A DNA stretch of 64,000 nucleotides from Phormidium tenue FACHB-886 (GTDB taxonomy: Bacteria; Cyanobacteriota; Cyanobacteriia; Elainellales; Elainellaceae): positions 1-64,000 of the forward strand of contig NZ_JACXWX010000012.1 in assembly GCF_014764505.1 (NCBI RefSeq), written 5' to 3'. Below are positions 4,259-20,200 of the stretch, piece by piece. How positions within the stretch are numbered: the first letter of the stretch is position 1; each line of letters begins with the position of its first letter. The notes below the pieces were generated by a model. It ran no database searches. It had not been told where the DNA came from and saw only the letters and a list, made by a program, of their open reading frames with translations. Both the position numbers and the translations under genes were made by a program.

Positions 4259-5185
4259 ATGGAGATCGTCTTGAAGAATGACACGATCACACTCACGGTG
4301 CGACCTGATTTGGGTGGTCGAATTGACCAATTGCGAGATTTGCAAACAGACCGTGAGTGGCTGTGGCATTCCCCCGACTATGACCCATCGCAGACTCGAT
4401 CGCTAGCTGTCGGTGATTCTTTTGATCAAAACTGGACAGGCGGCTGGGACGAGGTTTTCCCGAATGATGCAGCAGGTTCATTCCGGGGTCATTCGCTTGT
4501 CGATCATGGCGAGCTATGGTCGCAGACTTGGGACGTGGTAGAGTCTTCTGCCCTGAGTGTGCATCTGACCTATGCTTGTCAAACGGTGCCGGTGCGAGTT
4601 GAAAAAACGATCCGGCTGCATGAAACGCAACCAGAAGCCGAGATCGAGTATTTATTCCAGAACACATCTGATGAAACGCTACCGTTCTTGTTTAAGCAAC
4701 ATGCGGCGATCGCCATTGAGCAAGGCGACGAAATTCTGCTGCCAGATTGTTTAATTGAACCAGTTGATTTAGGGTTTAGCAAGATCATTGGTCGTCAAGA
4801 AAAGACCCATTTCCCAACTGCCTTTGGAGCAGATGGCAAAGTAATTCAGGTACAATATGCACCTCCCCGCTCCTCGCAGCTCCAAGAGTTTTACTACAGC
4901 TCAGAATTGGCGATTGGACAATGCGGCATCCACAACGGCAGATCGCAGTCCGCTTTGTTGATGCGGTTTGATACGGCAGACTTTCCGTTTGTCTGGATGT
5001 TTCAAAGCTATGGCGGCTGGGGCGATCGTTATGTCGTAGTAGTGGAGCCTTGCACAACCATGCCCTACGACTTAGAAATTGCCTGCCAGAACGGCACCGC
5101 CGCACAGCTCCAACCTCAGCAAACGCAACGACGACGGCTAACCGTCCGTTTGCAGCATTTCCCTAGCACTCCTGCTGAAGCTTAG
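4259..5185 (+). CDS. aldose 1-epimerase (galactose mutarotase)-like protein
   Basis: A 308-residue protein with the beta-sandwich signature of mutarotase-like sugar-binding proteins: an N-terminal strand set ending VRPDLGGRIDQLRDL (the family's GG.I..L), then a WTGGWDEVFPND segment and DHGELWSQTWDV where epimerases place their DHG/substrate loop. The later part (FLFKQHAAIAIEQGDEILLP) is compatible with the catalytic half, but I cannot assign the His/Glu catalytic pair with certainty. Start ATG 4259 follows GGGGAC at 4245-4250. It is a single gene with a terminator behind it, and its substrate is unknown. Confidence 0.72.
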   Translation: MEIVLKNDTITLTVRPDLGGRIDQLRDLQTDREWLWHSPDYDPSQTRSLAVGDSFDQNWTGGWDEVFPNDAAGSFRGHSLVDHGELWSQTWDVVESSALSVHLTYACQTVPVRVEKTIRLHETQPEAEIEYLFQNTSDETLPFLFKQHAAIAIEQGDEILLPDCLIEPVDLGFSKIIGRQEKTHFPTAFGADGKVIQVQYAPPRSSQLQEFYYSSELAIGQCGIHNGRSQSALLMRFDTADFPFVWMFQSYGGWGDRYVVVVEPCTTMPYDLEIACQNGTAAQLQPQQTQRRRLTVRLQHFPSTPAEA

Positions 5186-5300: not shown

Positions 5301-6098
5301 CTACTCCGCCTGACAGCATTCTAAAAAAGGGGCTGTCGTAATGTCTTCTGTGCTAAAGTCGATGCCGCGATCGCGCAAGTCGATCGATAGCGCCGACAGA
5401 AGCACCGTCCAATCTGCAGCGATCGCTGGATTTTCGGCTTCGGTTTGGTAGGCAGTTCCCAGTGTTGTCAGGGCATCGTACCAAATGCCGTTCTCCGCAT
5501 AGATTGCCACCCGATCACGGGCAGAAGGCGCTGATTTTAAGGTTTTGGCAAGCGTCGAGCCAAGAGCCACCCGACGAATCGATCCTTCTACAAAGCGATT
5601 GGCGGAAGACTGGGCCGGGTTTGTGCAAGACAGGGATAGTGACCATTGATAGGAGCGATCAACGTCTAAATCTGGAAATTGTGCAGGTAAAGGGATAGAA
5701 ACGATGCCTGCCTCCTGACTGGTTGCCGTCAGCTCAACAGCGATTGGATTCTCGTCTGCCGGAGCGATCGCAAACTCTAAAACATAGCTGCCAGCCGGGA
5801 GATATGCCCAAAAAGTAGGGCGGGCTGCCACAGTCAGGGCTGCTCCAGTGCTGGGAATCAAAGCGGCTAGTACGCCGGGTTCAGCCGCAGCACCACAAGG
5901 AGCACGTGTACCCGTATCAGTCTGACGGCTAGGGCTACCGCGATCAGAGCCGGGCGGGGATGGGGGAACATATTCGAGCGTGGTGGACGCGGGCGTGCGG
6001 GGAGCAGCAAGGGCGATCGCTGGGCTAAAGAGAAGCGCGATCAGGGGGGTTAGCAGCGTGGCTAGCAGCACGGATTGGGGGCGAAAGGAGCGGCTCAT
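5301..6098 (-). CDS. DUF928 domain-containing exported protein
   Basis: About 265 residues. The N-terminus (MSRSFRPQSVLLATLLTPL and onward to ALAAP) is a classical signal peptide, so the product is exported or periplasmic. The mature part shows DUF928 features: FWAYLPAGSYVLEFAIAPAD, a central strand-rich domain, YQWSLSLSC, and a C-terminal helical part (GIWYDALTTL). Members are common in cyanobacteria next to CHAT-CHASE2 genes, and their role is unknown. I take ATG 6098, 17 bases after the upstream stop. The longer frame begins at a TTG (6134) inside the preceding gene and would bury the signal peptide. It is the last gene of the sigma/CHAT cluster, followed by the terminator at 5237. Confidence 0.82.
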   Translation of the reverse strand: MSRSFRPQSVLLATLLTPLIALLFSPAIALAAPRTPASTTLEYVPPSPPGSDRGSPSRQTDTGTRAPCGAAAEPGVLAALIPSTGAALTVAARPTFWAYLPAGSYVLEFAIAPADENPIAVELTATSQEAGIVSIPLPAQFPDLDVDRSYQWSLSLSCTNPAQSSANRFVEGSIRRVALGSTLAKTLKSAPSARDRVAIYAENGIWYDALTTLGTAYQTEAENPAIAADWTVLLSALSIDLRDRGIDFSTEDITTAPFLECCQAE

Positions 6099-6114
6099 AG
6101 ATGCGATGGGGCTA

Positions 6115-8487
6115 TCAAGTATCGGTAGTCTCAAAGACGATATAGACGATGATAGTTCCCCCTAGTGCCAGAACAGCGGGAACCAGCGGCAGCCAATAGC
6201 CCTGTAGTAACAGCAGGTAGCAGCCACCGACCAGCAGCCCGATTGCCCCAACGGTTGCTATTAGCCTGCTGCGTCTCGACCGCCACCGCCAAACAATAAT
6301 GCTGCCCCCAATCGCCCAACCGCTAATCCAAAAAATCTCGGCTGCGGCTGAGCTAGTCTGCAGCAAGGGGCGTCCATCCAGCACAGCGCTGAGAATTTGG
6401 CTAGCCATGTGCGCCTGAATCACCAAACCTGGGATTTTCTCTGAACTGATGGGCGTCAGGTGGAAGTCTTTGAAGCTGGTATCGGTATTGCCGATCATCA
6501 CAATTCGATCTTTGACCCAAGCTGGATCGATCTGCCCGTTCAAAACTTGGCTTAGCGTTACGGCTCTGGCGATGCCTGCTTTGGTGGCGCGGTAGTTGAG
6601 TAAAATTTGATGTCCGCGATCGTCAATCTGCTGATAGCCGCCCATCCCTTGTTCTAGTGGGCTAAACAGCCTGTTGCCGATCTTAATTTGCGGCTTTTCC
6701 TGATTCGTCCATTCTAGACTTACTCCTTCGTCTCGCAGGTAGCGGAGGGCAATGAGCAGCCCCAGCGAAAGATCGCTCGGACAAACCGACTGAGCGGCAG
6801 GTGTCTGCATCAAGAGCTGTCGGCGCAGCCGATCGTCTGGATCAGTGACGGTGCTGCTGAATCCAACTCGGTTGCGGATTTGGTCGTTTGGGATTTCTGG
6901 CGGTGGGGCGATGCCGAGGTTGCTCTGGGTTTTGCCGAAGCTGCACACTCCAATCAGGCGATCGTCTGTTTGCAGAAATTGGGTCAGCGCAGGGTGGTTT
7001 GGGCTGGCAGCAAAGTCCCGATACAAATCCAGCGCAATCACGCGGGGCTGATAGGATTGGAGCCGCTGAAGCAGTTTTTCTAGGTCTGCATCGGTGAGAG
7101 ATGCACCCCGCCGAGCGTTGGAAGACTGGGCGGCAACATCAGCTTCGGTGATGGTGACCAGCAGGAAGCGATCGTCTTGCCCCTGTTCTGGGCGCATCTG
7201 CATCAGCTGGTCATAGGCTTGTAGCTCCCAAGGCTGCAGTAGCCCAACCAGCCGCGCCAGCACTACCACCAGTGCAGCCAAACCGCTAAAGCCGATCGCC
7301 ACCCTGCCTGCATTGCCTGTAAACAGAGGCTGACGTACCACAGCAGTTTGACGACGAGACTGGGGTTTTTGGCAGGCTTGCCAGGTAAGCGGCTGCGCGG
7401 CTGGGCTTTGATAGATCACGGGCAACCAGCTGGCGCAGGGAAACTGATCTTCCAAACCTTGCAGCCGCTCTCTTGCCTCTCGTACTGCCAGATAAAAAGA
7501 CTTGCCGCTGGCAAACGCTGGCAAAAAATAGCGCAAAAAGTGCTGTGCCACCAGATCGGGCACAGGTTCGCGCATTACCACCAGATGGGGAATCCGCAAA
7601 TCTGCCAGCGATCGCGCCAAGCTTAGCCCATCGCAAGAGTTGAAAATGGCAAGCTGTAGCCCAGAGGCGATCGCCCGCTTCAGCCCATAGCGCAGGTTAT
7701 CGATGCTGAGGGAGTCGTGCGGATTGATGTAGATTTGCCCTGCGTCATCGTTGGAGTCGCTGTGTCCGGCGAAGAAGAGAATGTCCCAAGCCTGCTCCCA
7801 CAGGTGGTCGTTGATCTGCTGTCGCTGGGGTTCTACCAGGAAGGTGACTTCTGCATCAGGCAAACTCGCTAAAAGCTGACGATCGGCAGCGATATCGATG
7901 TTGGCACTGTTGCCCAGAATGCCGAGAATCCGGACTTTTGGCGTGGGCGGAGGAGGTTGAACGGCGATTTGCTCAAAGTCTGGGGTGCTAAAGGCGATTT
8001 CTGCCTGCGGATAGCGCTCAATAAAATCCCAGCGATGCCAGGGAAGCTGGCTGAGCCGACGATCGGGCGATCGAATTAACACCTGAATGGCTTCCTGCTT
8101 GCTCAGCTCTTCCCGCAGCCGCACATTCACTTCCTGAAATGGCTCTGCTTTCAGCCAGGTTTGCAGATGGCTTTCTAGCTCTTGTGCCGATCGCCGACAG
8201 GCATCGATGGGGCTAATGGAGCCGCCATAAGTGACACGGTGGGGTTTGATGGCGCGGCTGGGAAAGATCAGCTTGCGGTAGGTTTGCTGCCACTGATCGA
8301 GGTGGGCAATCAGGTCAGGGGCAGGTGGCAAATTGCCAATCAGTTCGGTGGAGTAAGGATAGGCTGAGGGTTGAGTAAGATCGGCTGGGGAAATTTCCAA
8401 CGTCACCCGGAAGCCGTGCTGCTCAAAGTCGCCGTCAAGTTTTAGGGTTACGCGCTTGCTCATTGCCGGAGTGGGGGCAGCATTCAA
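6115..8487 (-). CDS. CHAT-CHASE2 membrane sensor (caspase-like protease domain plus extracytoplasmic sensor)
   Basis: A 790-residue protein. Residues 1-130 form a conserved N-terminal region. A CHAT peptidase domain follows (about 170-370) with its catalytic pair visible: His242 in FFAGHS and Cys285 in FNSCDG. A membrane segment (about 395-415, IGFSGLAALVVVLARLVGLL) leads into a CHASE2 domain beginning LQPWELQAYDQLMQMRPEQ, expected outside the cytoplasmic membrane, and two or three closing membrane helices end the protein. CHASE2 domains sense unknown signals and CHAT domains are caspase-family cysteine proteases, so this looks like a signal-gated protease. It lies 28 bases after the 226-residue gene and just before the DUF928 gene. 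ATG 8463 is an alternative start. Confidence 0.88.
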   Translation of the reverse strand: MNAAPTPAMSKRVTLKLDGDFEQHGFRVTLEISPADLTQPSAYPYSTELIGNLPPAPDLIAHLDQWQQTYRKLIFPSRAIKPHRVTYGGSISPIDACRRSAQELESHLQTWLKAEPFQEVNVRLREELSKQEAIQVLIRSPDRRLSQLPWHRWDFIERYPQAEIAFSTPDFEQIAVQPPPPTPKVRILGILGNSANIDIAADRQLLASLPDAEVTFLVEPQRQQINDHLWEQAWDILFFAGHSDSNDDAGQIYINPHDSLSIDNLRYGLKRAIASGLQLAIFNSCDGLSLARSLADLRIPHLVVMREPVPDLVAQHFLRYFLPAFASGKSFYLAVREARERLQGLEDQFPCASWLPVIYQSPAAQPLTWQACQKPQSRRQTAVVRQPLFTGNAGRVAIGFSGLAALVVVLARLVGLLQPWELQAYDQLMQMRPEQGQDDRFLLVTITEADVAAQSSNARRGASLTDADLEKLLQRLQSYQPRVIALDLYRDFAASPNHPALTQFLQTDDRLIGVCSFGKTQSNLGIAPPPEIPNDQIRNRVGFSSTVTDPDDRLRRQLLMQTPAAQSVCPSDLSLGLLIALRYLRDEGVSLEWTNQEKPQIKIGNRLFSPLEQGMGGYQQIDDRGHQILLNYRATKAGIARAVTLSQVLNGQIDPAWVKDRIVMIGNTDTSFKDFHLTPISSEKIPGLVIQAHMASQILSAVLDGRPLLQTSSAAAEIFWISGWAIGGSIIVWRWRSRRSRLIATVGAIGLLVGGCYLLLLQGYWLPLVPAVLALGGTIIVYIVFETTDT

Positions 8488-8514
8488 AAGATGACGAAAA
8501 GTATCTCTGTGAAC

Positions 8515-9195
8515 CTAATTGGCGATCGGCACATTCTTAAACGCCTGCGTCTGTTCCAGCAGGAGATCTACAGTGGTCACATTTTCAGGAATTCTCATCC
8601 ACACGTATCCATCTACCGAAGAATTGGGTTGAATCGAATCGATCAAAATCGGAGAGGTCCCACGTTTGAGGGGATCAACTGCTTGATAGGTTTCACTTGT
8701 TTCAGGATTGCGAGCTACTGTCTCCCCGGCAGATAGTATATCGTTCAGTACTTTCGCATCCTCGTTTGTAACCCGCCGCAAACGAAACTGAACGTTAACC
8801 ACATCACGCTTGCCCGTTTCAGGGTCTTGGATACGTTTAACTGAAAGTAGCTCGACCTCACCAATACTGCCAAAAGCAGGCTGAACAAACTGCTTGGGCT
8901 GAATCCCTGCCGTGGCAGGAGTGGCTGTGGCAGGAGCGGCTGTGGCAGGAGCGGCTGTGGCAGGAGATACAGCGATTGGAGATGAAGCGGTATCTAGCGG
9001 TGGTTTGGTTGATTCATTGGCAGCGCCAACCGAGTTAGGAGCCTGAACCGAGCCGTTGACAACTGCTGGGGCAGGAGCGATCGTCATCTGCCGCGTAGAA
9101 AACGTTTGATAGAGGGCAAAACCGCTGACCAACAGCGCTATCGTTGACATGGTGAAGGAAAGAGTGGTTAACAGGTTAGAGCTTGAGTCTTTCAT
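8515..9195 (-). CDS. single-pass membrane-anchored protein of unknown function
   Basis: A 226-residue product with one N-terminal membrane helix (about residues 13-29, LSFTMSTIALLVSGFALYQTF), a Pro/Ala/Thr-rich linker containing repeated PATAA units (about 80-100), and a compact C-terminal domain (VELLSVKRIQDPETGKRDVVNVQFRLRR onward) that ends in a short beta-rich part. I do not recognise the family. The topology suggests a domain displayed on the outside of the cytoplasmic membrane by a flexible stalk. It sits inside the sigma/DUF1822/CHAT-CHASE2 cluster, 60 bases after DUF1822, in the same direction, so it is probably co-transcribed and may be a partner of the CHASE2 sensor. Confidence 0.65.
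   Translation of the reverse strand: MKDSSSNLLTTLSFTMSTIALLVSGFALYQTFSTRQMTIAPAPAVVNGSVQAPNSVGAANESTKPPLDTASSPIAVSPATAAPATAAPATATPATAGIQPKQFVQPAFGSIGEVELLSVKRIQDPETGKRDVVNVQFRLRRVTNEDAKVLNDILSAGETVARNPETSETYQAVDPLKRGTSPILIDSIQPNSSVDGYVWMRIPENVTTVDLLLEQTQAFKNVPIAN
8912..8966. repeat. 15-bp tandem repeat inside the 226-residue gene
   Basis: Three full copies and a partial fourth of GTGGCAGGAG(C/T)GGCT run from 8912 to about 8966. They encode the Pro-Ala-Thr-Ala linker and could vary in copy number by slippage without breaking the frame. Confidence 0.8.
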
Positions 9196-9255
9196 GTTTT
9201 AGTTCTCTTGTTGTACTTCTATCTGGTATTTCTGATGTGTCTCTAATGTTCAACT

Positions 9256-10188
9256 TCAAATCACAAAAGCATCGATCGCGCTGGTTTCGCCCAGCACGAT
9301 TTTAGTGCTGAATCGATCGCCCCACTCGCCGCTAAACTCAACGCTGATCATCTCTGTGCTTCTGGCTTGGGCTTGAATCACTGCCACCCCTGCTTCATCG
9401 AGAATCATCAGTTCTAGATCGGGCAGGAGATGCTGACGACCCTCTGTGGGGCAAACTTTGACGGAGATGCTCGCTTCCGATTCTGTTTTAGCAGACACTT
9501 CCACCACCAACGCCACCGGTTCGCGGCTCAGCTTGCCCAAGTTCAGCACCTTACCTCGGCTTGACCACTGCATTGGTGCCGCGGTGGACTGGCTGCGATA
9601 TTGCCAAGCCGGAGTCTGGAGGTTAAACAGCTCCTCGATCGTCTGCCAAGCGCCATCTACCTGGTTCTGAAGCCATTGGCTAAGCTGCACCACAGCGGCA
9701 GGCTGAGCAGCGGCTTGGAGCTGGTTTAGGTACGAAGGCAGCGTTTCGATCGGTTTAAGGGCGGCAAGCGGCAGTTGTTCGGTGGTGGCTGCCTCCACAA
9801 AGCCCAGCAGGGTAGCTTCTTGGAGCGTTTCGCTGATCTGTACTGCTACATAACCAATTCGATCGCTCCAGACTTCTGCAGGGATGTAGACCCTTTCGGC
9901 AGCGGGCAGCACCGGACGACATTCTAGAGTGCCGTAGCGATCGACTACCAGATCGGCAGCGTCTAGCAGCTGCTGCATCAGCGGGTTGGTGCTGCTGCTT
10001 GCCGCCAAATTTGTCTCGAACTCTAGGCGCTCCAGATAAGTTTGGACTGCATACACCGCCAGCGTGTTGAGATAAACCTGCTTGGCTTTGCCAGCCTTGT
10101 GATACCGACGAAATTGTTTGGCTCTGGTGTGAGCCTCAAGCGTTAACGGAATCGTGATCGTTAAGGGCGCAAGGTCAGACATAATCAT
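9256..10188 (-). CDS. DUF1822 family protein
   Basis: A 310-residue soluble protein. It has the DUF1822 outline: a short N-terminal strand and helix (LTITIPLTLEAHTRAKQF), then KQVYLNTLAVYAVQTYLERLEFET, a family hallmark, then a barrel-like middle (RVYIPAEVWSDRIGYVAVQISE) and a C-terminal part with strand pairs ending in FSTKIVLGETSAIDAFVI. The family is found almost only in cyanobacteria, typically beside a sigma-like factor and CHAT-CHASE2 gene, as here (35 bases from the sigma gene). Function is unknown. Being the direct neighbour of the sigma factor, an anti-sigma or adaptor role is a reasonable guess, no more. Confidence 0.82.
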   Translation of the reverse strand: MIMSDLAPLTITIPLTLEAHTRAKQFRRYHKAGKAKQVYLNTLAVYAVQTYLERLEFETNLAASSSTNPLMQQLLDAADLVVDRYGTLECRPVLPAAERVYIPAEVWSDRIGYVAVQISETLQEATLLGFVEAATTEQLPLAALKPIETLPSYLNQLQAAAQPAAVVQLSQWLQNQVDGAWQTIEELFNLQTPAWQYRSQSTAAPMQWSSRGKVLNLGKLSREPVALVVEVSAKTESEASISVKVCPTEGRQHLLPDLELMILDEAGVAVIQAQARSTEMISVEFSGEWGDRFSTKIVLGETSAIDAFVI

Positions 10189-10223
10189 TGGCTTTGGAAA
10201 TAAGATTTTAGGGCGATAGCGCT

Positions 10224-11153
10224 TTAGTCGGATAGGTGCTGTTCAAATAAAGGAATAAATTCTTGGCAGCGGCGTTGGAAGAAGCTGCTCAGCGTGGGGA
10301 TGGGTATACCAAACTCGGCCGAGAGGTCTGCCCAGCTTCTTTCGTGAACAAAACGGGCGAGGGCGATCGATCGAAAGTTGGCATCGGGGCGATTTTTCAC
10401 ATGGGACTGCTGTAAAACCTGATCTGGATCGCGTTCGATATAGTCGCGGAGCTGCTCGGCGGGGGAGGCTAGCGGTTCGGGCTGGGCAAAAGTTTCTAGT
10501 TCTGCAAGCGTTGGTAGCTCTTGATGGGTAACGGCGTTAAACTCACGCCGACAGTCTAAAATCGTTCGATCGAGCCGAAAATTAACCCAGGACATGAACT
10601 TCTTTTCACCACGCTCCGGGTCATAGCGATCAATACTGCGGCACACATAGGTCAGCGTCCGGTTTACCGCTTCCTCGTAAATCAGCGCATAGAACGGAGG
10701 CGAAAAGGTTGCCTGATGCGGACGGCTCAGCTTTCCTGACAAACGAATTGCCTCAACGAGCTGCCCTAACGTGTGCTGTCGCGCTTCGGTTTGGGGGCTA
10801 TGCCGCTGTGCCTCAATCGCCAACCGCTTGAGCTGGCTATCGTCCAGGATCTGGCTAAACGCCCGATCGCGCAGCCCACTTGCCCAAATCCTTGCTGAAA
10901 TCTGCTGGGCATCAAAGCGATCGATTGCCTGCTCCAACTCGATCAAGAGCTGTTGGCGAGCACGCTCATAGATCTCCTGATGAACGCCTGCCAGCAGTTG
11001 CCCTTTAGCAGACCGTCCCACCTTACGCGATCGCAGAATTTCGTCTGCTAATCGCTCCAGTGTTGTCTGCTGGGGGCTGGCGATCGCCTGCTGAATTAGC
11101 TGTTCCAGTGCCGTCATCATATTGTTATCAATTGAGTTCCCATCTAACGCCAC
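10224..11153 (-). CDS. sigma-70-like factor (atypical, cyanobacterial)
   Basis: About 309 residues. The middle carries a sigma region-2-like block (YEEAVNRTLTYVCRSIDRYDPERGEKKFMSWVNFRLDRTIL, about 160-210), with the RYDPERG...WVN pattern typical of region 2.1-2.3. The C-terminus is a region-4-like helix-turn-helix (RSWADLSAEFGIPIPTLSSFFQRRC, about 270-300). The N-terminal 150 residues are an extra, arginine-rich helical extension. It probably directs RNA polymerase to a special promoter set. It is the first gene of a five-gene minus-strand cluster and faces the PrsW group across a 480-base gap. The frame opens with GTG 11153. ATG 11120 or 11117 is also possible, and no ribosome site decides. 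Confidence 0.75.
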   Translation of the reverse strand: MALDGNSIDNNMMTALEQLIQQAIASPQQTTLERLADEILRSRKVGRSAKGQLLAGVHQEIYERARQQLLIELEQAIDRFDAQQISARIWASGLRDRAFSQILDDSQLKRLAIEAQRHSPQTEARQHTLGQLVEAIRLSGKLSRPHQATFSPPFYALIYEEAVNRTLTYVCRSIDRYDPERGEKKFMSWVNFRLDRTILDCRREFNAVTHQELPTLAELETFAQPEPLASPAEQLRDYIERDPDQVLQQSHVKNRPDANFRSIALARFVHERSWADLSAEFGIPIPTLSSFFQRRCQEFIPLFEQHLSD

Positions 11154-11632
11154 CGTCGTTGTTTGTTCTGGTTGTAACTCTGCTGGGTAAGAAGGGAATT
11201 ATGCAATTTTGCAAAATTTTTTGGATAGTTTTCTTCGGGTTTTGCAGATCCTGATCGCTCAAATCATCTCTATACCCTTACTCAAGTCTCGATCCAGTTC
11301 TTGAAAAGAACAGAAGATTCGATCAGGAGAAAAATTACAAAAATTATCGTTCAGAGTTTGCATAAAACACTGCCTTAATCCATGAGTAACGCATGATAGC
11401 ATCTTGAGGAATTTGACATGGAGCTGAGCCGATCGCCTATTTGCTATCGCGCCAACTTCTTGGCTCAGCCCCGTCAGCCGATCCAGTGTCCGCTGCAGCA
11501 CTTAATGCAATGCTAGCCGCTGTGGTTTCGCTGTTCTCAGCTTTTTGAGTGCATCGCTTGAGGGAGATTTCAATACCCCTCACCTTTACAGTTCTATTTC
11601 CTATAAATAATCAAACTTTGGGAGATCGAGTC
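11154..11632. promoter_or_regulatory. divergent intergenic region between sigma-factor cluster and PrsW group
   Basis: About 480 bases, with AT-rich DNA at 11190-11240, separate the two oppositely transcribed groups and must hold promoters for both. A minus-strand frame at 11259-11501 (80 codons from a GTG) begins like coding sequence but loses this character and lacks a good start, so I do not call it. No clear -35/-10 pair stands out. Confidence 0.4.
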
Positions 11633-11866
11633 ATGATTTTGTTGACTACTGTTTCCGCTGGCTATGCGATCGGCTATGCGCTGGGTCAGGTCTTTGGCGT
11701 ATTTCTGTTTATGCTAATCATCGGTGGCATTTATTTTTTGATTCAGCGCTTTGGAGCGAAGCGATCGAACTTCTCGTTTTCTCAGGCAATTTTTCATCCT
11801 TGGGTGGTGGGCAGCAGCGTTGGGCTGACGCTGTTAGGGATGTTGGGCAATGCCATCAACCATTAG
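11633..11866 (+). CDS. small hydrophobic membrane protein
   Basis: A 77-residue protein with two or three membrane helices (TVSAGYAIGYALGQVFGVFL, then MLIIGGIYFLIQRF, then VVGSSVGLTLLGMLGN) joined by a short basic loop (GAKRS). ATG 11633 is preceded by GGGAG at about 11620 and is the better start. The longer frame from 11549 adds 28 residues without support. I do not recognise a family. It lies 42 bases before the PrsW-type gene and is probably co-transcribed with it. Confidence 0.6.
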   Translation: MILLTTVSAGYAIGYALGQVFGVFLFMLIIGGIYFLIQRFGAKRSNFSFSQAIFHPWVVGSSVGLTLLGMLGNAINH

Positions 11867-11908
11867 CAAAAAACCAACTAAAAAATTAGTCAAACCTAGC
11901 GAGACACA

Positions 11909-13225
11909 ATGACTGATTCTAATCTTCCTTTAACTCAATCAGGCTCAACGTCGTCCAATGCCGGAACTGACTTCACGCAGCCTAACGCTGCTCCACCCGA
12001 TACAGCTCACCTTGCAAATGCGATCGCTACACAGTTCAATCAAGATCTATCGCCCAAGGGCATTACTGTGACGGTGGGCGCGGAGGCAAACAGTTTAAGA
12101 GTGCTGCTGGCGGCAGAACCACCGCCCAATCAGCTAGAGACGATCGGGTTGATCTGCGAGCGGCTGGCAAGTTTTGAGCTGGGGAGCCTGCAAATAGTGA
12201 AAGTGTTGGGTCAGCAGTTTGGCACAGGGGCGATCGCTTGGGAGCAAACGCTGGATCTATCAGCCGCTTCAGCCTCCACTGCCCCAGCCGCAGCAGAAAA
12301 ACGGCTCCGGCATCTGGAACTGCTCGCTTCTTTAAAGACTTTCAAATTTTCTTCTGTGATTCCCTACAAAGAAGCGATTCGTCCCGATCTGTACAACAGT
12401 GGTGTTGTGCGGCTGCTCCTGTTTTTTAGTCTGTTTCCTTGGGCTGTCCGGTTTTTTGCTGCCAATGTGGGGCTAGAGCAAACCGCCTGGATTTTAGGCA
12501 TTTACTATGCCTTGATCTGGGGTATTGTCTTGCGCTACTTGATCAAGCCGAGGCAATTTTCCTGGAGCAACACGCTCAAATGCGTTGGATTTACTGCCTT
12601 CGTTGGCATTCCGCTCCTGCTGCTGGTGCAAAAAGTTCCGCTGTTTGATCTACTGTACGCAGCCAGCGATCAGCGGAATTGGAGCCTGAAGCTGATCGGC
12701 TTTGTGCTGGGCGTAGGGGTGCTGGAAGAGGTGTGTAAGGCGCTGCCCGTTTATTTGCTGTTGCTGCGTCCGGGCAAGCTCAGCGATCCGCTGACGGCGG
12801 CTTTTTATGGCTCTATGTCGGGGCTGGGATTTGCGATCGCTGAAGGCGCCAGCTATTCCGTTCTGTATGCCTTTAACCTGGTTGAGGGAGAGCTTGATTT
12901 TGGTGGCTATGTGCTGCTCAACACGCTGCGGTTTATTTCAACGCCGCTGTTTCACGCGATTTGGGCGGGCATCACCGGGTATTTTATCGGCTTAGCGGCG
13001 ATCAATCCTTCGCGGCAAACGCCAATTCTCATCATTGGTGTGGCGATCGCCGCCACGCTACACGGGCTATACAACACTTTTGCGGGCGATTTCTTGGGTT
13101 TACCTGTCTTGGCTTTCTCAATTCTGCTGTTTGTCGCTTATCTGCGCCGTAGCAAACAAATGGTGGAAGAAATGGTGCAAGCAGAGCAAATGGCTAAACC
13201 CGCCGCTGACGATCAGGCTGTGTAG
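11909..13225 (+). CDS. PrsW family glutamic-type intramembrane protease
   Basis: A 438-residue membrane protein. An N-terminal cytosolic region of about 160 residues (low-complexity start, then a small alpha/beta domain) precedes eight or so membrane helices. The three PrsW motifs are present: EEVCK (Glu273/Glu274), FAIAEGA (Glu312) and HAIWAG (His349). In Bacillus subtilis PrsW cuts the anti-sigma factor RsiW at site 1 and so frees SigW. Here the gene is transcribed away from a sigma-factor cluster, so a similar role in releasing a sigma factor is suggested by context but unproven. The soluble N-terminal domain is additional to the minimal family. Confidence 0.85.
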   Translation: MTDSNLPLTQSGSTSSNAGTDFTQPNAAPPDTAHLANAIATQFNQDLSPKGITVTVGAEANSLRVLLAAEPPPNQLETIGLICERLASFELGSLQIVKVLGQQFGTGAIAWEQTLDLSAASASTAPAAAEKRLRHLELLASLKTFKFSSVIPYKEAIRPDLYNSGVVRLLLFFSLFPWAVRFFAANVGLEQTAWILGIYYALIWGIVLRYLIKPRQFSWSNTLKCVGFTAFVGIPLLLLVQKVPLFDLLYAASDQRNWSLKLIGFVLGVGVLEEVCKALPVYLLLLRPGKLSDPLTAAFYGSMSGLGFAIAEGASYSVLYAFNLVEGELDFGGYVLLNTLRFISTPLFHAIWAGITGYFIGLAAINPSRQTPILIIGVAIAATLHGLYNTFAGDFLGLPVLAFSILLFVAYLRRSKQMVEEMVQAEQMAKPAADDQAV

Positions 13226-13341
13226 CCTGTCTTGGAACCCCGAACGCCAGTTTCAACGGCTCTGATAACCCCAACGGACGACAGCAAAACCGTCGAGTTG
13301 AAGTCGTCATCAAGAACTAAACCCATCTAGAGGAACCCCTC

Positions 13342-13734
13342 ATGATTAACCCATCCATTCAAAAAGGTCAAACCTTGGTGATCGGCGTGATCGCCATCGT
13401 CATTCTTATCTCGCTCCTGAACCTGGTAGGAATGGCAGCGATCGCCCCTACTCAGAACACAGCCAAAGACGGCGTTCGCTTGGTGCTAACGATCGCAATG
13501 TGCATTTTTCTTTATCAAGGCTATGGCTGGGCGCGTTGGGTGCTGGGCGTCTTGCTGGGGCTAGGCGGACTCGTTGCTATTCCAGGAGCACTCCTAGTCC
13601 TGACAACTTCCTTTTTCGGAGCGCTGTGGATCTTGGCGATCGGCGTGCTTTATTTAGGCTGCGCCTGGGTATTGTTGCGATCTCCAGAGATCAAGGCGTT
13701 CTTGGCAGCCCAGCGAGGCAAGCGGGTTAATTAG
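13342..13734 (+). CDS. small polytopic membrane protein
   Basis: A 130-residue protein with four predicted membrane helices: VIGVIAIVILISLLNLVGM, LVLTIAMCIFLYQGYGWA, WVLGVLLGLGGLVAIPGALLVL and GALWILAIGVLYLGCAWVLL. ATG 13342 follows AGAGGAA with good spacing. The arrangement resembles small four-helix cyanobacterial membrane proteins of unknown function. It follows PrsW by 116 bases in the same direction and may belong to its operon. Confidence 0.6.
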   Translation: MINPSIQKGQTLVIGVIAIVILISLLNLVGMAAIAPTQNTAKDGVRLVLTIAMCIFLYQGYGWARWVLGVLLGLGGLVAIPGALLVLTTSFFGALWILAIGVLYLGCAWVLLRSPEIKAFLAAQRGKRVN

Positions 13735-13852: not shown

Positions 13853-14965
13853 ATGGTTGCAGACGGCGCTGGCAACAGCATCCGCAAAGCAAGACAAATT
13901 GACTTGTCTACGGGTCCCACGACTATAAATGATCGAATTGGCAGTGCTGATAGCAATGATTACTATGTACTGCAGCTAAAGAGCCGCAGTAGCTTTGCAG
14001 CAAAACTCGGTCGCCTAAAAGCCGATGCCCAGCTAGCGCTGTTCAATCAGCGGGGGCGCATCTTGCAGCAATCGACTCGAAAGGGGAAACGGGCAGAGTC
14101 AGTTCAACAAACCTTAAAGGCTGGAACCTATTATCTCCGGGTTTATTCGGGCAATCGACGGGCGAATACGCAATACAAACTGACTCTCGCTGCTTCGGCC
14201 GTTAGCAGTTTGCCTGCCCAACCCAATCCAGCCTCCTCTAGAAGCAGTTTCAACATCCAGTTTGATTACCGGTTTGATACGAGCGGCTGGTTTACGCCGG
14301 AGAAGAAGGCGGCTTTGGAAGCTGCTGCCAACGTTTGGGAACGAATTATTCTCAACGAATTTCCTGACCTGCCCGCAGGTAGCCGCGCCACGGTGGTCGA
14401 TCCTCAAACGAGGCTGCTGACCGAAGTTGTCACAGACAAAGTGGATGACCTGGTCATCTTTATGGGCGCGAGACAAAGGGGCGGATCGTTTTCAACGCTG
14501 GCGGTGACTCAGCCCGCTAGCTGGTTGGCTGAGCAATCCCGGTCTGATTTTGCCCCTTGGGTGGGCAACATCACCTTTACTAGCGAGATTGATTGGTTCT
14601 TTGATTCGACCCCTGAAACAGCCGCAGATGTTCCCAGAAATCGGATCGATTTTATCTCTGTTGCCGCGCATGAAATTGGGCATGTGTTGGGTATCAGCCG
14701 CAGTAAAGCCTTTGATGATTTGGAGGTCAACTACAGCTTTCAAGGTGCAAAGGCAAAAGCCCAAAATGGCGGCAATCCTGTGCAGCTAACCAATACCTTG
14801 CATATCGACGACGATACACAGTCAGATAACTCAGGCGATCCACTCCTGAGTCCATTTCATATCCCTGGAGAGCGAAAATTACCGACTGCGTTGGACATTG
14901 CCATCCTGGAGGATACAGGCTACACCGTTGATTACAGCACTGCTTCACGCAATCCTGTAGCGTGA
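13853..14965 (+). CDS. PPC-domain zinc metalloprotease
   Basis: A 370-residue protein. Residues 10-110 form a bacterial pre-peptidase C-terminal (PPC) domain (ends GTYYLRVYSGN..NTQYKLTL). After a linker, a protease domain contains HEIGHVLG (His273, Glu274, His277). The usual third metzincin ligand, three residues after the Gly, is Arg, so this is not a canonical matrixin. A later His317 (LHIDDD) is the likely third ligand, as in cyanobacterial matrixin-like relatives where it follows a 35-45-residue insertion. PPC proteins are usually secreted, but no signal peptide is visible here, which is odd. AGGAAGAG precedes ATG 13853. It is a separate unit after the PrsW group. Confidence 0.75.
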   Translation: MVADGAGNSIRKARQIDLSTGPTTINDRIGSADSNDYYVLQLKSRSSFAAKLGRLKADAQLALFNQRGRILQQSTRKGKRAESVQQTLKAGTYYLRVYSGNRRANTQYKLTLAASAVSSLPAQPNPASSRSSFNIQFDYRFDTSGWFTPEKKAALEAAANVWERIILNEFPDLPAGSRATVVDPQTRLLTEVVTDKVDDLVIFMGARQRGGSFSTLAVTQPASWLAEQSRSDFAPWVGNITFTSEIDWFFDSTPETAADVPRNRIDFISVAAHEIGHVLGISRSKAFDDLEVNYSFQGAKAKAQNGGNPVQLTNTLHIDDDTQSDNSGDPLLSPFHIPGERKLPTALDIAILEDTGYTVDYSTASRNPVA

Positions 14966-15014
14966 ACGTTCGTTTGATTAGGCTCTGGGCGCTCCGCACG
15001 TAGATTGATATCTG

Positions 15015-15055
15015 TTTTGTGTAGAAGCCCCGCGTAACGAGACTTCTACACAAAA
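15015..15055. terminator. bidirectional hairpin terminator
   Basis: TTTTGTGTAGAAG (15015-15027) pairs perfectly with CTTCTACACAAAA (15043-15055) around a 15-base loop, between the convergent metalloprotease and glycosyltransferase genes. The stem ends in A/T runs on both strands, so it can act in both directions. Confidence 0.8.
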
Positions 15056-15082
15056 ATTTGCCTTGATGTAGTCTAGTTTCAC

Positions 15083-16378
15083 TTACCGCAATACAGGTTG
15101 CTTTGTGGTGGCTAGCTGTTCGAGTAAGTTTGCTGCGATCGCAGGCGCGTTGTACTGCTGCATTTTGGTTTGTAGCTGCTGAGCGCAGACGCGGTAGCTA
15201 GCATCCATTAGCAATGTTTTGACTGCAGCCCGGATCTGCTGTGGCGAGGGAGTGCGTGTTCTAAGGTTAATTCCTACTTTTGCCCACTCCACTCGGGCTG
15301 CAACTTCTGGTTTCTCTTCGGTTTTTCCAGCTACGACAAGGGGAATGCCATTTGCCAGTGCCATCTGCACACCGTTATAGCCGCCGTTTGTCACCATGAT
15401 ATCTACATGAGGTAGCAGGTGAGCATGGGGAATGAATGGTTCTATTCTGGCGTTGGCGGGTAGGGTGAGATTGAGAGTATCGATCGCTGCTCCACCCGTG
15501 GTTGCCACAACTAAAACCGCTTCGTCTGCTAGGGCTTGCAAGGTAGGAACCAGCAGCTCTGCAAGATTGGTAGAAACTGTTCCTTGCGTCACATGAACGA
15601 CTGGCTTATGTTCTTTTAGTTCGTTCCACCAGACGGGGGGTGTAAATTCAGCCGGAGGCGGAGAAAGCAACGCGCCAATGAAATGAATTTGAGGCGGTAG
15701 GTAATGGCGTGGATACTCAAACTCTGGAACGCTGGGTGACAAATATAAGAAGGGAGAGATCCGCTCGAAGAAATGAACGGCACTGGGGGGCAGCCCGATC
15801 TGCGATCGCAAACCGTTGGTGTAAGTCTTTAGCTCCCGCAGCATCGTTTGCCGTGCGAACCAGTTTAGCCCTTGATTCCGCAGTCGTCTGAATAGCGTGT
15901 TGCTGGGCAATAAACCCATTCCAAAAGGAGCCGTATCTGGGCTGCTCAGGGCTAGGGCAGAGGTCCCGAATTCTGCCCAAGGGAGCCGTTTTTGTTCTGC
16001 TATCCAGGAAGCGCCCAGAAACATAGAATCAGCGATCAAGATATCGGCAGGAAACTCATACAGCAGATCTGAGAGATCTTTGGCTTGTCCTAAGCCAGGA
16101 TTGATAAAAAAGTTTTTTAGATCAAACTTTATTCTGTTAGCCCCCTGTTCTGTTTCGCGTTGCTCCATTAAGGCAGGCGGAACGTTCTTTATATCGGAGT
16201 AGTCCATCCAGCTCCGAATTGGCGCAAATCGCGCCCCGATTTTTTCAATAGTCGCTTGAAAAGCTTGTCCGGTGTACCAGCACACTTCATGTCCGCGATC
16301 GACTAGCTCCCGAACGATTGGCACGGCAGGACCGACATGCCCAATAACTGGAATTGTTGCAACTAGAAAACGAGCCAC
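15083..16378 (-). CDS. GT1/MGT-like glycosyltransferase (UDP-glucuronosyl/UDP-glucosyltransferase type)
   Basis: About 431 residues with the GT-B fold of family 1. The N-terminal half starts RFLVATIPVIGHVGPAVPIVRELVDRGHEVCWYTG, the acceptor-side Rossmann fold. The C-terminal half carries VHVTQGTVS, IEPFIPHAHLLPHVDIMVTNGGYNGVQMALANGIPLV, the nucleotide-sugar motif. It probably glycosylates a lipid, carotenoid or other hydrophobic acceptor. GTG 16378 has GAGGTG six bases upstream and gives the family-typical N-terminus. The longer frame from 16444 adds 22 residues and is less likely. The acceptor cannot be deduced. Confidence 0.8.
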   Translation of the reverse strand: MARFLVATIPVIGHVGPAVPIVRELVDRGHEVCWYTGQAFQATIEKIGARFAPIRSWMDYSDIKNVPPALMEQRETEQGANRIKFDLKNFFINPGLGQAKDLSDLLYEFPADILIADSMFLGASWIAEQKRLPWAEFGTSALALSSPDTAPFGMGLLPSNTLFRRLRNQGLNWFARQTMLRELKTYTNGLRSQIGLPPSAVHFFERISPFLYLSPSVPEFEYPRHYLPPQIHFIGALLSPPPAEFTPPVWWNELKEHKPVVHVTQGTVSTNLAELLVPTLQALADEAVLVVATTGGAAIDTLNLTLPANARIEPFIPHAHLLPHVDIMVTNGGYNGVQMALANGIPLVVAGKTEEKPEVAARVEWAKVGINLRTRTPSPQQIRAAVKTLLMDASYRVCAQQLQTKMQQYNAPAIAANLLEQLATTKQPVLR

Positions 16379-16636
16379 CCGCTTCACCTCTCTGATGAAT
16401 TGAACGTTTGATGAACTGAACGTGAGTGAACGATTCATCAGCAAAAGCTAAATGTGAGCTTGCGTCGTTCAATCACTTGTACAGGCTAAACAACTCAATT
16501 CATTAAGTCAGTCGGGAAAGGTCAGAAAAAATCGGTTTGGAAGTCAGTTGTCATTAAGAGTAAATTGTCTCTCGCAACAAAAACAAAGAATGTCAATTAG
16601 ACGAATTTGCTTTGGGCTGGCGATCGATACGGGTTG

Positions 16637-17638: not shown

Positions 17639-20200
17639 ATGCGCCTAAGATTTTGCTGCCTTGTTGCCCTTGCTGCCCTCCTCACGGTTTTGCCCCTGCC
17701 AACGCTGAACAAGGTACAAGCAGTTCCCAGCCCAGCTCCCGCACCCAGCCCAACCGCTACTCCAGAGCAGGCAAATCCACGCCAAATCGAAGCAGCTCAG
17801 CTCATGCTGGAAGGCATTTTGCAGATGCAGCGCAATCAATATCAGGAGTCGTTGCAAAACCTGCAGGCATCGCTGCAGATCTATCAAGAGCTGGACGAAC
17901 CTCAGGGGCAGTTTATCCTGCTGAATAGCCTGGGGTCAGTCTATTTTTATTTGGGGCGATATCAGGAATCGATCGCAGCATCGCAGCAGTCGATCGAGCT
18001 ACTGCAGGCGTTGGGAGATGCGCCCGAAGCCGCGATCGGGCGCTCTTTTGAGATGGTAACGCTGACGAACTTGGGCTTATCGCATCAATATTTGGGGCAA
18101 TATCAGCAGGCGATCGACTTTCTGCAGCGGGCGCTGACGGCAGCTCAGCAGGCAAACCAGCCCTTAATGGAAGCAACCGCGCTAGTTCATTTAGGCGATG
18201 CTTACCGGACGATCGGCAAATATGAGCAGGCAGTCCAAGTGGGTCAGCAGGCGCTTACCGTGCTGCGATCGTCGCCTCAGGTGCCAGCCAGCCCTCCTGC
18301 CGCTGCTGCTCAAAATCCGCTAGAAGCCTTGTTTGCGCCTGCTTTGGCAACCGGAGCGCAGCAAGCAGAAGCAGGCGCATTAGCCAATTTGGGCATTGCC
18401 TATGGCTTCCTCAAAGATTATCCGCAGTCGATCGCTTTCTTGCAGCAGTCGTTGGAGTTGGCAAAAGAGATTGGCGATCGGCAAATTGAGTCGAGGGCGC
18501 TGCTCAATTTGGGCAACACCTACCTATCGGCAGAGCAGCCGCAGCAGGCAGCTGAGGCATTTCGGCAGGCAATCGCCTTAGCAAAAGAGATTGGCGATCG
18601 GCAGGGAGAAGCGATTGCGCTGGGCAACCTGGGCAACAGCTACCGCAACTTGGGCGAATTTGAGCAGGCGATCGACTCACACCAGCAGTCGCTGGCAATC
18701 AAACGAGAATTGGGCGATCGGGCTGGAGAAGCGATTAGCCTCAGCAACCTTGCCTATGCCCTGCTTAACGAAGGACAGCCACAAGACGCAGAATTGCTGC
18801 TCTGGAACTCGGTTGAAATCCTGGAGTCGCTGCGAACCGGGCTCAAAAGCGATACCGAACGAGTGGCTTTGCAGGATACCCAACGCTACGCCTATGAGAA
18901 CCTGCAAAATGCCCTCGTCATGCAAAACAAAATTGAACAAGCTTTGGAAGTGGCTGAACGCGGACGCGCCAGAGCTTTTGTAGAGCTTTTGTCTCGGCAT
19001 CAGCTCGGCTCGGCAGATTCCAGCGCAGTGCCGAGCATGGCTAGCCCCTCGATCGACGAGATCAAACGCATCGCCCGCTCCGAGAACGCTACCCTCATTG
19101 AATATTCCATCATCGATCAGAAAACGCTATTTATCTGGGTGATCCAGCCCACAGGCAAAATCACTTTCCGCCAAACCGATTTCAACGCTACCTTCCAACA
19201 GCCTCCCAGCCGCAACGCCAGCCCAACCGCTGCAGCATCAGCCAGCCCAGCCGAAGACCCATTCACCAGCCTCGTTTCCACCACCCGCAGCGCCGTAATT
19301 GCCGATCGCAGCGCTCCCGTTGCCGACCTGACCCGTACCAACCAGCTCCGCACCCTCCATCAGTTTTTAATCGAGCCGATCGCCGATCTGTTACCCACCG
19401 ATCCCAACGATCGGCTGATCTTCATTCCCCAAGGCAGTCTTTTTCTAGTGCCCTTCCCTGCCCTTCAAGATGAAGCAGGCACTTACCTGATCAAAAACCA
19501 CACTATTCTCACTGCTCCAGCCATCCAGGTACTTGGTCTCACGGGTTCAGACCAAAACAGCGATCGCCCCCCTGCTCTAATCATTGGCAATCCTGTCATG
19601 CCCAAACTACCCACCTCCCCCGGCGAACCGCCGCAACCTTTGCCCGCACTTCCGGCAGCAGGCACAGAGGCGACGCTGATTGCGCAGCTGCTCAATGTGC
19701 AGGCGCTAGAGGGTGATCAAGCAACCGAAACCGCAGTGGTGCAGCAGATGCCCGCCGCCAAAATTGTGCATTTGGCAACCCATGGGCTGCTGAACTATGG
19801 GCAACCTGATGAGTTCGGCATTCTGGATACGCCGGGAGCCATAGCCCTTGCACCTTCCAATACAGACGATGGGCTGCTTACTGCAAGCGAGATCCTAAAG
19901 CTCAACCTGCAGGCAGACTTGGTGGTGCTGAGCGCCTGCGATACGGGGCGCGGACGAATTACTGAAGATGGAGTGGTGGGGCTGTCGCGCTCCTTCATGG
20001 CAGCGGGGGCTGCTAGCGTGGTGGTGTCTCTGTGGTCTGCCTCAGATCTGGCAACTGCCGATCTCATGACTAAGTTTTATCAGCAGCTCCAGCAAAACCC
20101 AGATAAAGCACAGGCACTGCGGCAGGCGATGTTAGCAACAATGGAGCAATATCCACATCCAAGAGATTGGGCAGCATTTACATTAATGGGCAAATCCTGA
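17639..20200 (+). CDS. secreted or membrane-attached TPR-CHAT protease
   Basis: An 853-residue protein. A signal peptide (MRLRFCCLVALAALLTVLPL and onward to KVQA) is followed by a Pro-rich linker, about eight tetratricopeptide repeats (roughly 45-420; for example YQESLQNLQASLQIYQEL, FEQAIDSHQQSLAIKREL), a linker, and a C-terminal CHAT domain (about 530-853). The catalytic His715 (LATHG) and Cys767 (SACDTGRG) are intact. CHAT proteins are caspase-like proteases. TPR-CHAT members include the type III-E CRISPR partner, but no Cas gene lies nearby. An exported location is inferred from the leader. ATG 17639 is preceded by a stop 13 codons upstream, so the start is fairly certain. Confidence 0.88.
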   Translation: MRLRFCCLVALAALLTVLPLPTLNKVQAVPSPAPAPSPTATPEQANPRQIEAAQLMLEGILQMQRNQYQESLQNLQASLQIYQELDEPQGQFILLNSLGSVYFYLGRYQESIAASQQSIELLQALGDAPEAAIGRSFEMVTLTNLGLSHQYLGQYQQAIDFLQRALTAAQQANQPLMEATALVHLGDAYRTIGKYEQAVQVGQQALTVLRSSPQVPASPPAAAAQNPLEALFAPALATGAQQAEAGALANLGIAYGFLKDYPQSIAFLQQSLELAKEIGDRQIESRALLNLGNTYLSAEQPQQAAEAFRQAIALAKEIGDRQGEAIALGNLGNSYRNLGEFEQAIDSHQQSLAIKRELGDRAGEAISLSNLAYALLNEGQPQDAELLLWNSVEILESLRTGLKSDTERVALQDTQRYAYENLQNALVMQNKIEQALEVAERGRARAFVELLSRHQLGSADSSAVPSMASPSIDEIKRIARSENATLIEYSIIDQKTLFIWVIQPTGKITFRQTDFNATFQQPPSRNASPTAAASASPAEDPFTSLVSTTRSAVIADRSAPVADLTRTNQLRTLHQFLIEPIADLLPTDPNDRLIFIPQGSLFLVPFPALQDEAGTYLIKNHTILTAPAIQVLGLTGSDQNSDRPPALIIGNPVMPKLPTSPGEPPQPLPALPAAGTEATLIAQLLNVQALEGDQATETAVVQQMPAAKIVHLATHGLLNYGQPDEFGILDTPGAIALAPSNTDDGLLTASEILKLNLQADLVVLSACDTGRGRITEDGVVGLSRSFMAAGAASVVVSLWSASDLATADLMTKFYQQLQQNPDKAQALRQAMLATMEQYPHPRDWAAFTLMGKS

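Follow-up and report, generated by a model that had tools for sequence, protein, structure and literature searches.

The stretch analysed here, referred to as the window, comprises positions 1 to 64,000 of contig NZ_JACXWX010000012.1 from Phormidium tenue FACHB-886, whose 8.93-Mb genome is assembled in 255 contigs; the relatives used for comparison are likewise cyanobacteria. It holds a cassette in which a sigma-like factor, a DUF1822 protein, a 226-residue protein with a single transmembrane (TM) segment, a CHAT-CHASE2 protein and a DUF928 protein follow one another on the minus strand. Opposite this sigma operon lie three divergent plus-strand genes, encoding P105, a PrsW-type protease and P130. 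Two copies of a predicted two-box promoter, one aimed at each operon, occupy the region between them, and suggest a protease-gated sigma switch of which the PrsW operon would be an output. The open reading frames (ORFs) named by a first-pass annotation of the same DNA are all present at the coordinates it gave, although it overlooked the duplication of the sigma-2 part of the factor, the two promoters and the TPR-CHAT gene at 17639-20200. The features are as follows.

5301..6134, minus strand: DUF928 protein (PF06051, 162.7 bits), predicted to be exported, with an N-terminal hydrophobic stretch at residues 19-45.
6115..8487, minus strand: CHAT-CHASE2 protein, with an EACC2-like region (~residues 8-120), CHAT with His242/Cys285, CHASE2 and membrane segments.
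8515..9195, minus strand: 226-residue single-TM protein with a Pro/Thr/Ala-rich stalk, from ORF and hydropathy; no Pfam family.
9256..10188, minus strand: DUF1822 protein (PF08852, 196.5 bits), with an alpha/beta N-half and an Ig-like C-half (residues 209-310).
10224..11153, minus strand: sigma-like factor with a GTG start, two sigma-2-like domains and one sigma-4-like domain.
10227..10463, minus strand: sigma-4-like helix-turn-helix (HTH) region of that factor (~residues 231-309), matched by Foldseek to SigR region 4 (5fgm).
10521..10835, minus strand: its second sigma-2 copy (~residues 107-211), the copy matching solved sigma factors in VIA.
10842..11096, minus strand: its N-terminal sigma-2-like copy (~residues 20-104; self-alignment score 65 vs 24.9 +/- 4.1 for shuffles).
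11175..11205, minus strand: predicted promoter toward the sigma operon, TGCATAATT-N16-GAGTTA, 21 nt ahead of the GTG.
11357..11389, plus strand: predicted promoter toward the P105-PrsW operon, TTTGCATAAAA-N16-GAGTAA.
11549..11866, plus strand: P105, a small membrane protein, with an in-frame ATG at 11633; the alignment with its FACHB-1515 partner starts at residue 21.
11909..13225, plus strand: PrsW-type protease (PF13367, 103.9 bits), a divergent paralogue with an N-terminal domain at residues 37-125.
13342..13734, plus strand: P130 (130 residues), multi-TM, no Pfam family; the gene is kept in FACHB-1515.
17639..20200, plus strand: TPR-CHAT protein, a member of the block kept in FACHB-1515.

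The Pfam cut-offs are passed by DUF928, CHASE2 (PF05226, 199.9 bits), CHAT (PF12770, 49.5 bits, on the same protein as CHASE2), DUF1822 and PrsW, whereas the sigma match falls below. As the first-pass annotation had proposed, CHAT protease, DUF1822 and sigma-like factor form one recurring module in cyanobacteria. A contig scan with the CHAT-CHASE2 alignment provided one set of loci (loci are cited by L numbers where they have to be told apart), of which the best 78 serve as a sample of the closest relatives; many of them stop at contig ends. DUF1822 directly precedes CHAT-CHASE2 in 54 of these 78 by profile, with sigma before DUF1822 in 24, and in 69 a DUF928 gene comes after CHAT-CHASE2, likewise on its strand. 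Among 16 other upstream proteins scanned, six are also DUF1822, two match HlyD and two match two-partner secretion (TPS) proteins. A second CHAT protein is found in 29/78 best loci vs 1/22 PrsW control loci. The own genome has nine DUF1822 loci, and four besides the window carry CHAT-CHASE2 and DUF928. The five-gene minus-strand block described earlier thus recurs as four genes; the fifth, for the 226-residue protein, is present in 1/78 best loci (rows L047/L078 only).

Nine window ORFs, from DUF928 to TPR-CHAT, are collinear on an 89,685-base contig of Microcoleus sp. FACHB-1515, while the rest of the 55 window ORFs compared have scattered matches there (three) or none. This nine-gene block is held together amid changed surroundings. 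In the window, P130 and TPR-CHAT are separated (13853-16444) by the gene of an M10-type metalloprotease that has a PPC-like part and by a glycosyltransferase-like gene; both are absent from that place in FACHB-1515, where the TPR-CHAT gene begins 40 nt after P130.

The sigma-like protein reaches 21.5 bits with Sigma70_r2, under the Pfam cut-off of 24, so sequence alone is no proof of its sigma identity. Its AlphaFold2 (AF2) model, built from a 28-sequence alignment, has a mean predicted local distance difference test (pLDDT) score of 90.6. In VIA, residues 106-211 of the model match region 2 of E. coli sigmaE (4lup_A) with Z 9.4 and a root-mean-square deviation of 2.5 over 89 aligned residues; since a Z of this size can arise by chance with helical models, reliance is placed on the agreement among rows, and all 50 shown are sigma factors or transcription complexes as judged by title. 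Foldseek returns sigma-related titles in 13 of its first 14 rows, with a best E of just 0.21, and the match of the sigma-4 HTH to 5fgm has a probability of 0.89, TMt 0.66 and E 3.6. A profile search aligned region 2.2/2.3 with SigE (E 0.18) and SigK (E 0.48), both weakly and below an unrelated hydrolase that ranked top (E 0.0061); its alignment sets EEALQ...TW opposite EETTQ...AW of SigK. Within the family, position 161 is D/E in 26/28 members, position 164 is Q/N in 26/28, and Trp189 is kept in 28/28. Region 2.2 and this tryptophan are therefore retained, in agreement with the sigma identity proposed earlier, and we take the residues of region 2.2/2.3 to be RNA-polymerase contacts. Computation on the model shows a sigma fold, and the protein is presumably an RNA-polymerase-binding transcription initiator.

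Self-alignment shows that the sigma-2 part is repeated in the first ~100 residues in the four members of at least 290 residues, with Z values of 9.8 for the window, 7.8 for L047, 17.8 for L090 and only 3.5 for L144, where some shuffles outscore the real alignment. The duplication in the window's factor is thus established by computation. A duplicated sigma-2 domain is unusual for a sigma factor, and a phrase search of the literature gave no description of such a protein, although this argues only weakly that none exists. Of 388 genomes searched within the class (E <= 1e-20, at most five candidates scored per genome), 69 have a match to the protein, which is nearly full length in 15, its own genome included.

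Other arrangements of sigma-like proteins were also seen. In L107 (130-2703) and L116 (6415-8991), a sigma-like domain is fused to a NACHT-HEAT protein ahead of DUF1822 and CHAT-CHASE2, an assignment read from Pfam for L107 and from equal length and place for L116. Longer sigma-like proteins (398-547 residues) lie upstream of DUF1822 in L089, L093, L122, L127, L139, L145, L146 and L150-L153, and go with a longer DUF1822 (376-419 vs 302-367 residues); Sigma70_r4 is matched by 8/15 of those scanned, four own-genome examples included.

The evidence connecting the two operons comes from the DNA between them. An 11-mer, TTTTATGCAAA, is common to the four intergenic regions first compared, whereas 2000 block shuffles reach at most an 8-mer. 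When no more than one mismatch is allowed, there are 20 copies in 18.2 kb surrounding the sigma genes of the double-sigma-2 clade (regions of our own choosing, some coding DNA within) vs 5 in 352.5 kb of control loci. Read outwards, the element becomes TTTGCATAAAA, and is followed after 15-16 nt by GAGT in 15 of the 20 cases, by GATT in three and by neither in two. The resulting strict pattern, TGCATAAWW-N15..17-GAGTNA, has 27 matches in 14 clade genomes (~96.5 Mb) vs 4 for the reversed pattern; the spacer is N16 in 22, N15 in two and N17 in three, and 22 of the 27 are no more than ~14 kb away from the sigma gene of the clade. In the own 8.93-Mb genome there are exactly two strict matches (none for the reversed control), both between the sigma gene and P105: the match at 11175-11205 on the minus strand is directed at the sigma operon, that at 11359-11389 on the plus strand at the PrsW operon. 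Spacers of 18-23 give 18 matches vs 10 for the reversed pattern, none of them between sigma and the facing gene. The motif and its placement are thus shown by computation, and the two-box arrangement looks like a promoter of extracytoplasmic function (ECF) type.

The genes behind these sites are of few kinds. After 25 N15/N16 sites in the loci read, the first ORF of at least 90 residues encodes the sigma factor in seven cases, an RTX protein in 11, P105-PrsW in one, a small exported-looking protein in three and another product in three; one of the RTX proteins is short and has two repeats as judged by signature. No convincing gene lies downstream of the three N17 sites. The small exported-looking proteins of L224, L226 and L228, of ~125 residues, stand directly behind the predicted promoter.

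From these patterns, the sigma factor presumably reads the TGCATAAWW-N16-GAGTNA motif. Alternatively, a different regulator could bind the two-box element, or a different sigma factor could read it, with the sigma-like protein acting elsewhere. The two boxes are known by conservation only, even at E 0.1 the Pfam sigma models pick up few members of the sigma family (Sigma70_r4_2 in 7/28, the window's own protein not among them, and Sigma70_r2 in 4/28), and one strict match lies in a single-sigma-2 locus. However, two short boxes with N16 spacing are positioned ahead of the sigma gene itself, and the element is nearly restricted to double-sigma-2 loci: the 75 of the 78 best loci that lack a double-sigma-2 factor have one match in 1.37 Mb, in L115. 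It is also changed, to TTTGTATAAAA-N16-GATT, in L231, L232 and L234, where the sigma matches the window's only to ~residue 199. Another reader of the element is thus a doubtful but serious alternative to recognition by the cassette's own factor. In L115, the strict promoter (minus strand, 8040) stands ~120 nt before a secreted subtilase-DUF4114 gene facing the single-sigma-2 gene.

Two other candidate forms of the signal were discarded. The bare TTTTATGCAAA does not define a genome-wide regulon, with 11 own-genome matches vs 4 for the control, four of the 11 forming two hairpins and the others lacking an evident common gene type; only the two-box form is specific. The inverted-repeat form TTATGCA-N-TGCATAAT has one match in two genomes. 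As for a possible shared promoter in single-sigma-2 loci facing RTX genes, the inverted repeats shown vary from locus to locus. Perfect TTTTATGCAAA hairpins in L177 (~4807-4841) and L181 (~4414-4454) are likely to be terminators or small repeats with no connection to the promoter.

The position facing the sigma operon was also surveyed by gene content, in 18 sigma loci (of 30 sigma rows) with a divergent ORF of at least 120 residues within 2 kb, after removal of cassette-family ORFs, PrsW included. An RTX protein occupies this slot in 6/18 vs 8/649 other ORFs (Fisher 4e-7), and Pfam confirms HemolysinCabind in all six. Over whole loci there is no strong enrichment (9.8/Mb in the best 78 vs 5.7/Mb in 22 PrsW control loci), so the RTX signal lies in the facing slot. 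Among 18 later loci, 10 have an RTX gene within ~2.3 kb upstream of sigma and seven a TPS exoprotein gene in the stretch. TPS genes number 22 in 1.43 Mb of the best 78 loci vs 0 in 0.35 Mb of control by sequence signature; relative to a background of 289 in 226.7 Mb of 40 genomes, which was detected with PF05860 and hence by a different detector, the excess near cassettes has p 9e-17 if the mean density is taken and 1e-7 if that of the densest single genome is taken. In the own genome, a TPS gene lies within 9.3 kb of 4/9 DUF1822 loci, where 0.5 are expected (p 0.002; 15 of 19 TPS places listed). The window holds no RTX or TPS gene by these signatures. A C39-ABC exporter gene was seen upstream of the CHAT-CHASE2 cassette of a Calothrix locus (L097:4362-6638).

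Here, the facing slot is taken by the PrsW operon. The active-site motifs of this protease are intact, as reported by the first-pass annotation, and E273, E274, E312, H349 and H385 are all conserved across 24 rows, none of them in fewer than 92%. Its score with the NCBIfam equivalog is 36.9 bits, far under the cut-off of 225, and it is therefore not called a PrsW equivalog. In the tree, the two block PrsWs form one clade (stem 1.35, support 100/100), apart from a family-typical PrsW that the own genome also carries. Residues 37-125 form a domain, unnamed by Pfam, that is found on many other cyanobacterial proteins, some of more than 1000 residues, and is also N-terminal in L041, L042 and L046.

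The PrsW–RsiW–SigW switch of Bacillus underlies the model of the first-pass annotation in the form in which cleavage of a membrane-held inhibitor starts with PrsW and so frees the sigma factor. The intact motifs would suit such a role, as would the conservation of the block across two genera despite lost flanking synteny, the status of the block PrsW as a specialised paralogue in its own fully supported two-member clade, and the 226-residue protein, seen only alongside this PrsW. Against it, the cassette occurs without PrsW elsewhere: the ortholog adjoins sigma in 1/78 best loci (FACHB-1515) and in 0/18 further loci fetched for this sigma kind (Adonisia already being among the 78, four having a different sigma C-terminus and several being short). 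A weak PrsW match (62 bits) lies ~3 kb beyond DUF928 in L134 and L135. The survey thus extends the adjacency beyond this genome, narrowly, to two genomes, and rules PrsW out as a general cassette partner.

A membrane-held inhibitor is also hard to place. Hydropathy scans find no single-pass protein with a cytoplasmic, anti-sigma-sized sigma-binding domain among nine regional proteins, and no RsiW-like protein was found at the locus. The first-pass annotation had named DUF1822, the 226-residue protein or a small membrane protein as candidates. DUF1822 has no hydrophobic stretch by hydropathy, and is thus not membrane-held by itself; the 226-residue protein has a single one (residues 8-26) with ~7 residues ahead of it, too few for a cytoplasmic anti-sigma domain if its N-terminus is inside. 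The partner of the latter protein in FACHB-1515 matches DUF4352 below threshold (E 0.13). Together with the predicted promoter that the PrsW operon shares with the sigma operon, this makes release of sigma by PrsW quite improbable. Because that promoter is common to both operons, PrsW is probably a target of the sigma factor, i.e. an output of the switch rather than its releaser, although it may feed back on it.

Alternatively, PrsW and its small partners could be neighbours by descent, functionally unlinked to the cassette. The pairing is found in two genomes only, and 22 of 24 PrsW-family loci lack the cassette, several of them ending at contig ends (the other two being the window and FACHB-1515). 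However, the flanks of the block differ between the two genomes and the PrsW operon has the shared promoter directed at it, which makes mere descent unlikely.

The proteolytic part of the proposed switch would be supplied by the CHAT-CHASE2 protein. Its His242/Cys285 dyad, reported as intact by the first-pass annotation, is conserved in 87/88 aligned rows, the remaining row being gapped there, and thus in 87/87 rows covering these columns (the window being one row, and L047 and L078 a single locus entered twice). A conserved N-terminal region precedes CHAT in 6/6 aligned proteins, and is a candidate EACC2-like region. The AF2 model of DUF1822 (pLDDT 89.7) combines an alpha/beta part with an Ig-like sandwich; a Csx30-like fold was considered and is absent from the structure rows shown, which hold Ig-like and similar domains. 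Solved chains gave zero sequence matches for CHAT-CHASE2 up to E 1 and for DUF1822 up to E 5. In an anti-phage library, the minus-block proteins, PrsW and P130 are unmatched, and TPR-CHAT and the NACHT fusion are matched only generically.

Partial correlations of protein distances over 25 loci arrange the parts in a chain: DUF928, CHASE2, CHAT, EACC2, DUF1822 C-half, DUF1822 N-half, sigma. The links are 0.71 [0.53, 0.81] for CHASE2 with DUF928, 0.27 [0.05, 0.49] for CHAT with CHASE2, 0.55 [0.24, 0.72] for EACC2 with CHAT, 0.45 [0.24, 0.62] for the DUF1822 C-half with EACC2, only 0.21 [-0.08, 0.44] between the two DUF1822 halves, and 0.56 [0.38, 0.72] for sigma with the N-half; all other values range from -0.21 to 0.13. 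Two of the links, that of the C-half with EACC2 (0.58) and that of CHASE2 with DUF928 (0.45), recur in 25 loci that lack this sigma. This chain suits a role of DUF1822 as an inhibitor-adaptor, like Csx30 in Craspase.

We propose that periplasmic DUF928 and the CHASE2 domain would jointly sense a signal, upon which the CHAT domain of the same membrane protein would become active and act, via its EACC2 region, on DUF1822, which would bridge protease and sigma factor and keep the latter inactive. The released sigma factor would then raise its own operon and the facing operon through TGCATAAWW-N16-GAGTNA. The facing gene encodes an RTX-repeat exoprotein, secreted and calcium-binding, in many relatives, and the facing operon here and in FACHB-1515 is P105-PrsW-P130, with TPR-CHAT in the conserved block; as an output, PrsW may process membrane or exported proteins, and the 226-residue protein, the M10 protein and the sensor are possible substrates. 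We give this protease-gated sigma switch, with the PrsW operon as output, a probability of about 0.55. The fuller version, in which CHASE2-CHAT cuts DUF1822 and frees the double-sigma-2 factor, whose private promoter drives an RTX exoprotein programme, the slot being refilled here by the PrsW/TPR-CHAT operon, is more tentative and falls short of even odds.

Several related systems have been described. In type III-E CRISPR, the CHAT protease Csx29 cleaves Csx30, the inhibitor of CASP-sigma (PMC10028731). As in this Craspase, a CHAT protease, an ECF-like sigma factor and, as proposed here for DUF1822, a sigma inhibitor are co-encoded, and predicted sigma sites lie inside the own locus; proteolysis relieves the sigma factor in Craspase, which is RNA-guided (PMC10028731), whereas a membrane CHASE2 sensor is present here. 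By Pfam and NCBIfam, none of ten locus proteins is Cas7-11, for which no search was made elsewhere in the genome. Since Craspase-type parts are present with a membrane sensor replacing the RNA-guided effector, the same logic is likeliest, with DUF1822 as the putative sigma inhibitor that CHAT may cleave. Kaur et al. 2021 predicted a protease-triggered sigma output for a module of caspase-like protease, DUF1822 and ECF sigma factor (PMC8195603). Their systems share with this one the caspase-like domain, the adjacent sigma and DUF1822 genes, CHASE2 among variable C-termini and the idea of protease then transcription, and the conserved region ahead of CHAT is a candidate counterpart of their alpha+beta N-terminal domain; however, they call DUF1822 a TPR protein, whereas the model here has an alpha/beta part and an Ig-like sandwich, and their main text lacks the words DUF928, PrsW, RTX, two-partner, hemagglutinin and promoter (PMC8195603). 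As for PrsW, the Bacillus enzyme cuts RsiW (PMC3482391), and this locus resembles that system in joining a PrsW-family protein and a sigma factor, but differs in that no RsiW-like protein was found and the PrsW operon seems to be a target. A tie between PrsW and exported proteins is also seen in PrsW-dependent polymorphic toxin export (Zhang et al. 2012, PMC3482391); on the present PrsW, Pfam finds no toxin domain, and other cyanobacterial proteins carry its N-terminal domain as well. Literature searches, which covered open-licence papers, brought up neither the PrsW variant nor the double sigma-2, the promoter or the RTX/TPS link.

A number of observations weigh against the proposed switch. 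The L115 locus has a single-sigma-2 factor, so the motif is not strictly clade-confined; the facing site of FACHB-1515 ends in GAGTAC and fails the strict pattern; and L229-L234, with the same sigma kind, lack a strict match, three having the changed element and three none. The loci were already known when the final pattern was fixed, and the 14 genomes include several from the same genera. With no solved-chain match for DUF1822, its homology to Csx30 is unsupported by sequence, and promoter recognition, proteolysis and the role of DUF1822 are all inferred. In the co-divergence analysis, the link of the DUF1822 N-half with DUF928 is unstable (0.31 with untrimmed DUF928, 0.28 without the double-sigma-2 loci), and in the 25 loci without this sigma the N-half also tracks EACC2 (0.58). 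Since the chain order is the gene order, linkage or segmental recombination could imitate co-divergence; the weaker covariation of the two DUF1822 halves than of neighbouring parts argues against linkage alone.

In the literature examined, earlier predictions of CHAT-sigma modules name neither a promoter nor a target nor an order of partners for the CHASE2 kind. If true, the switch proposed here would be a membrane-sensing counterpart, in multicellular cyanobacteria, of the CRISPR-linked CHAT-sigma switch. The promoter, the predicted regulon (sigma operon, RTX genes and PrsW operon) and the proposed inhibitor make the role of caspase-like proteases in multicellular bacteria testable.

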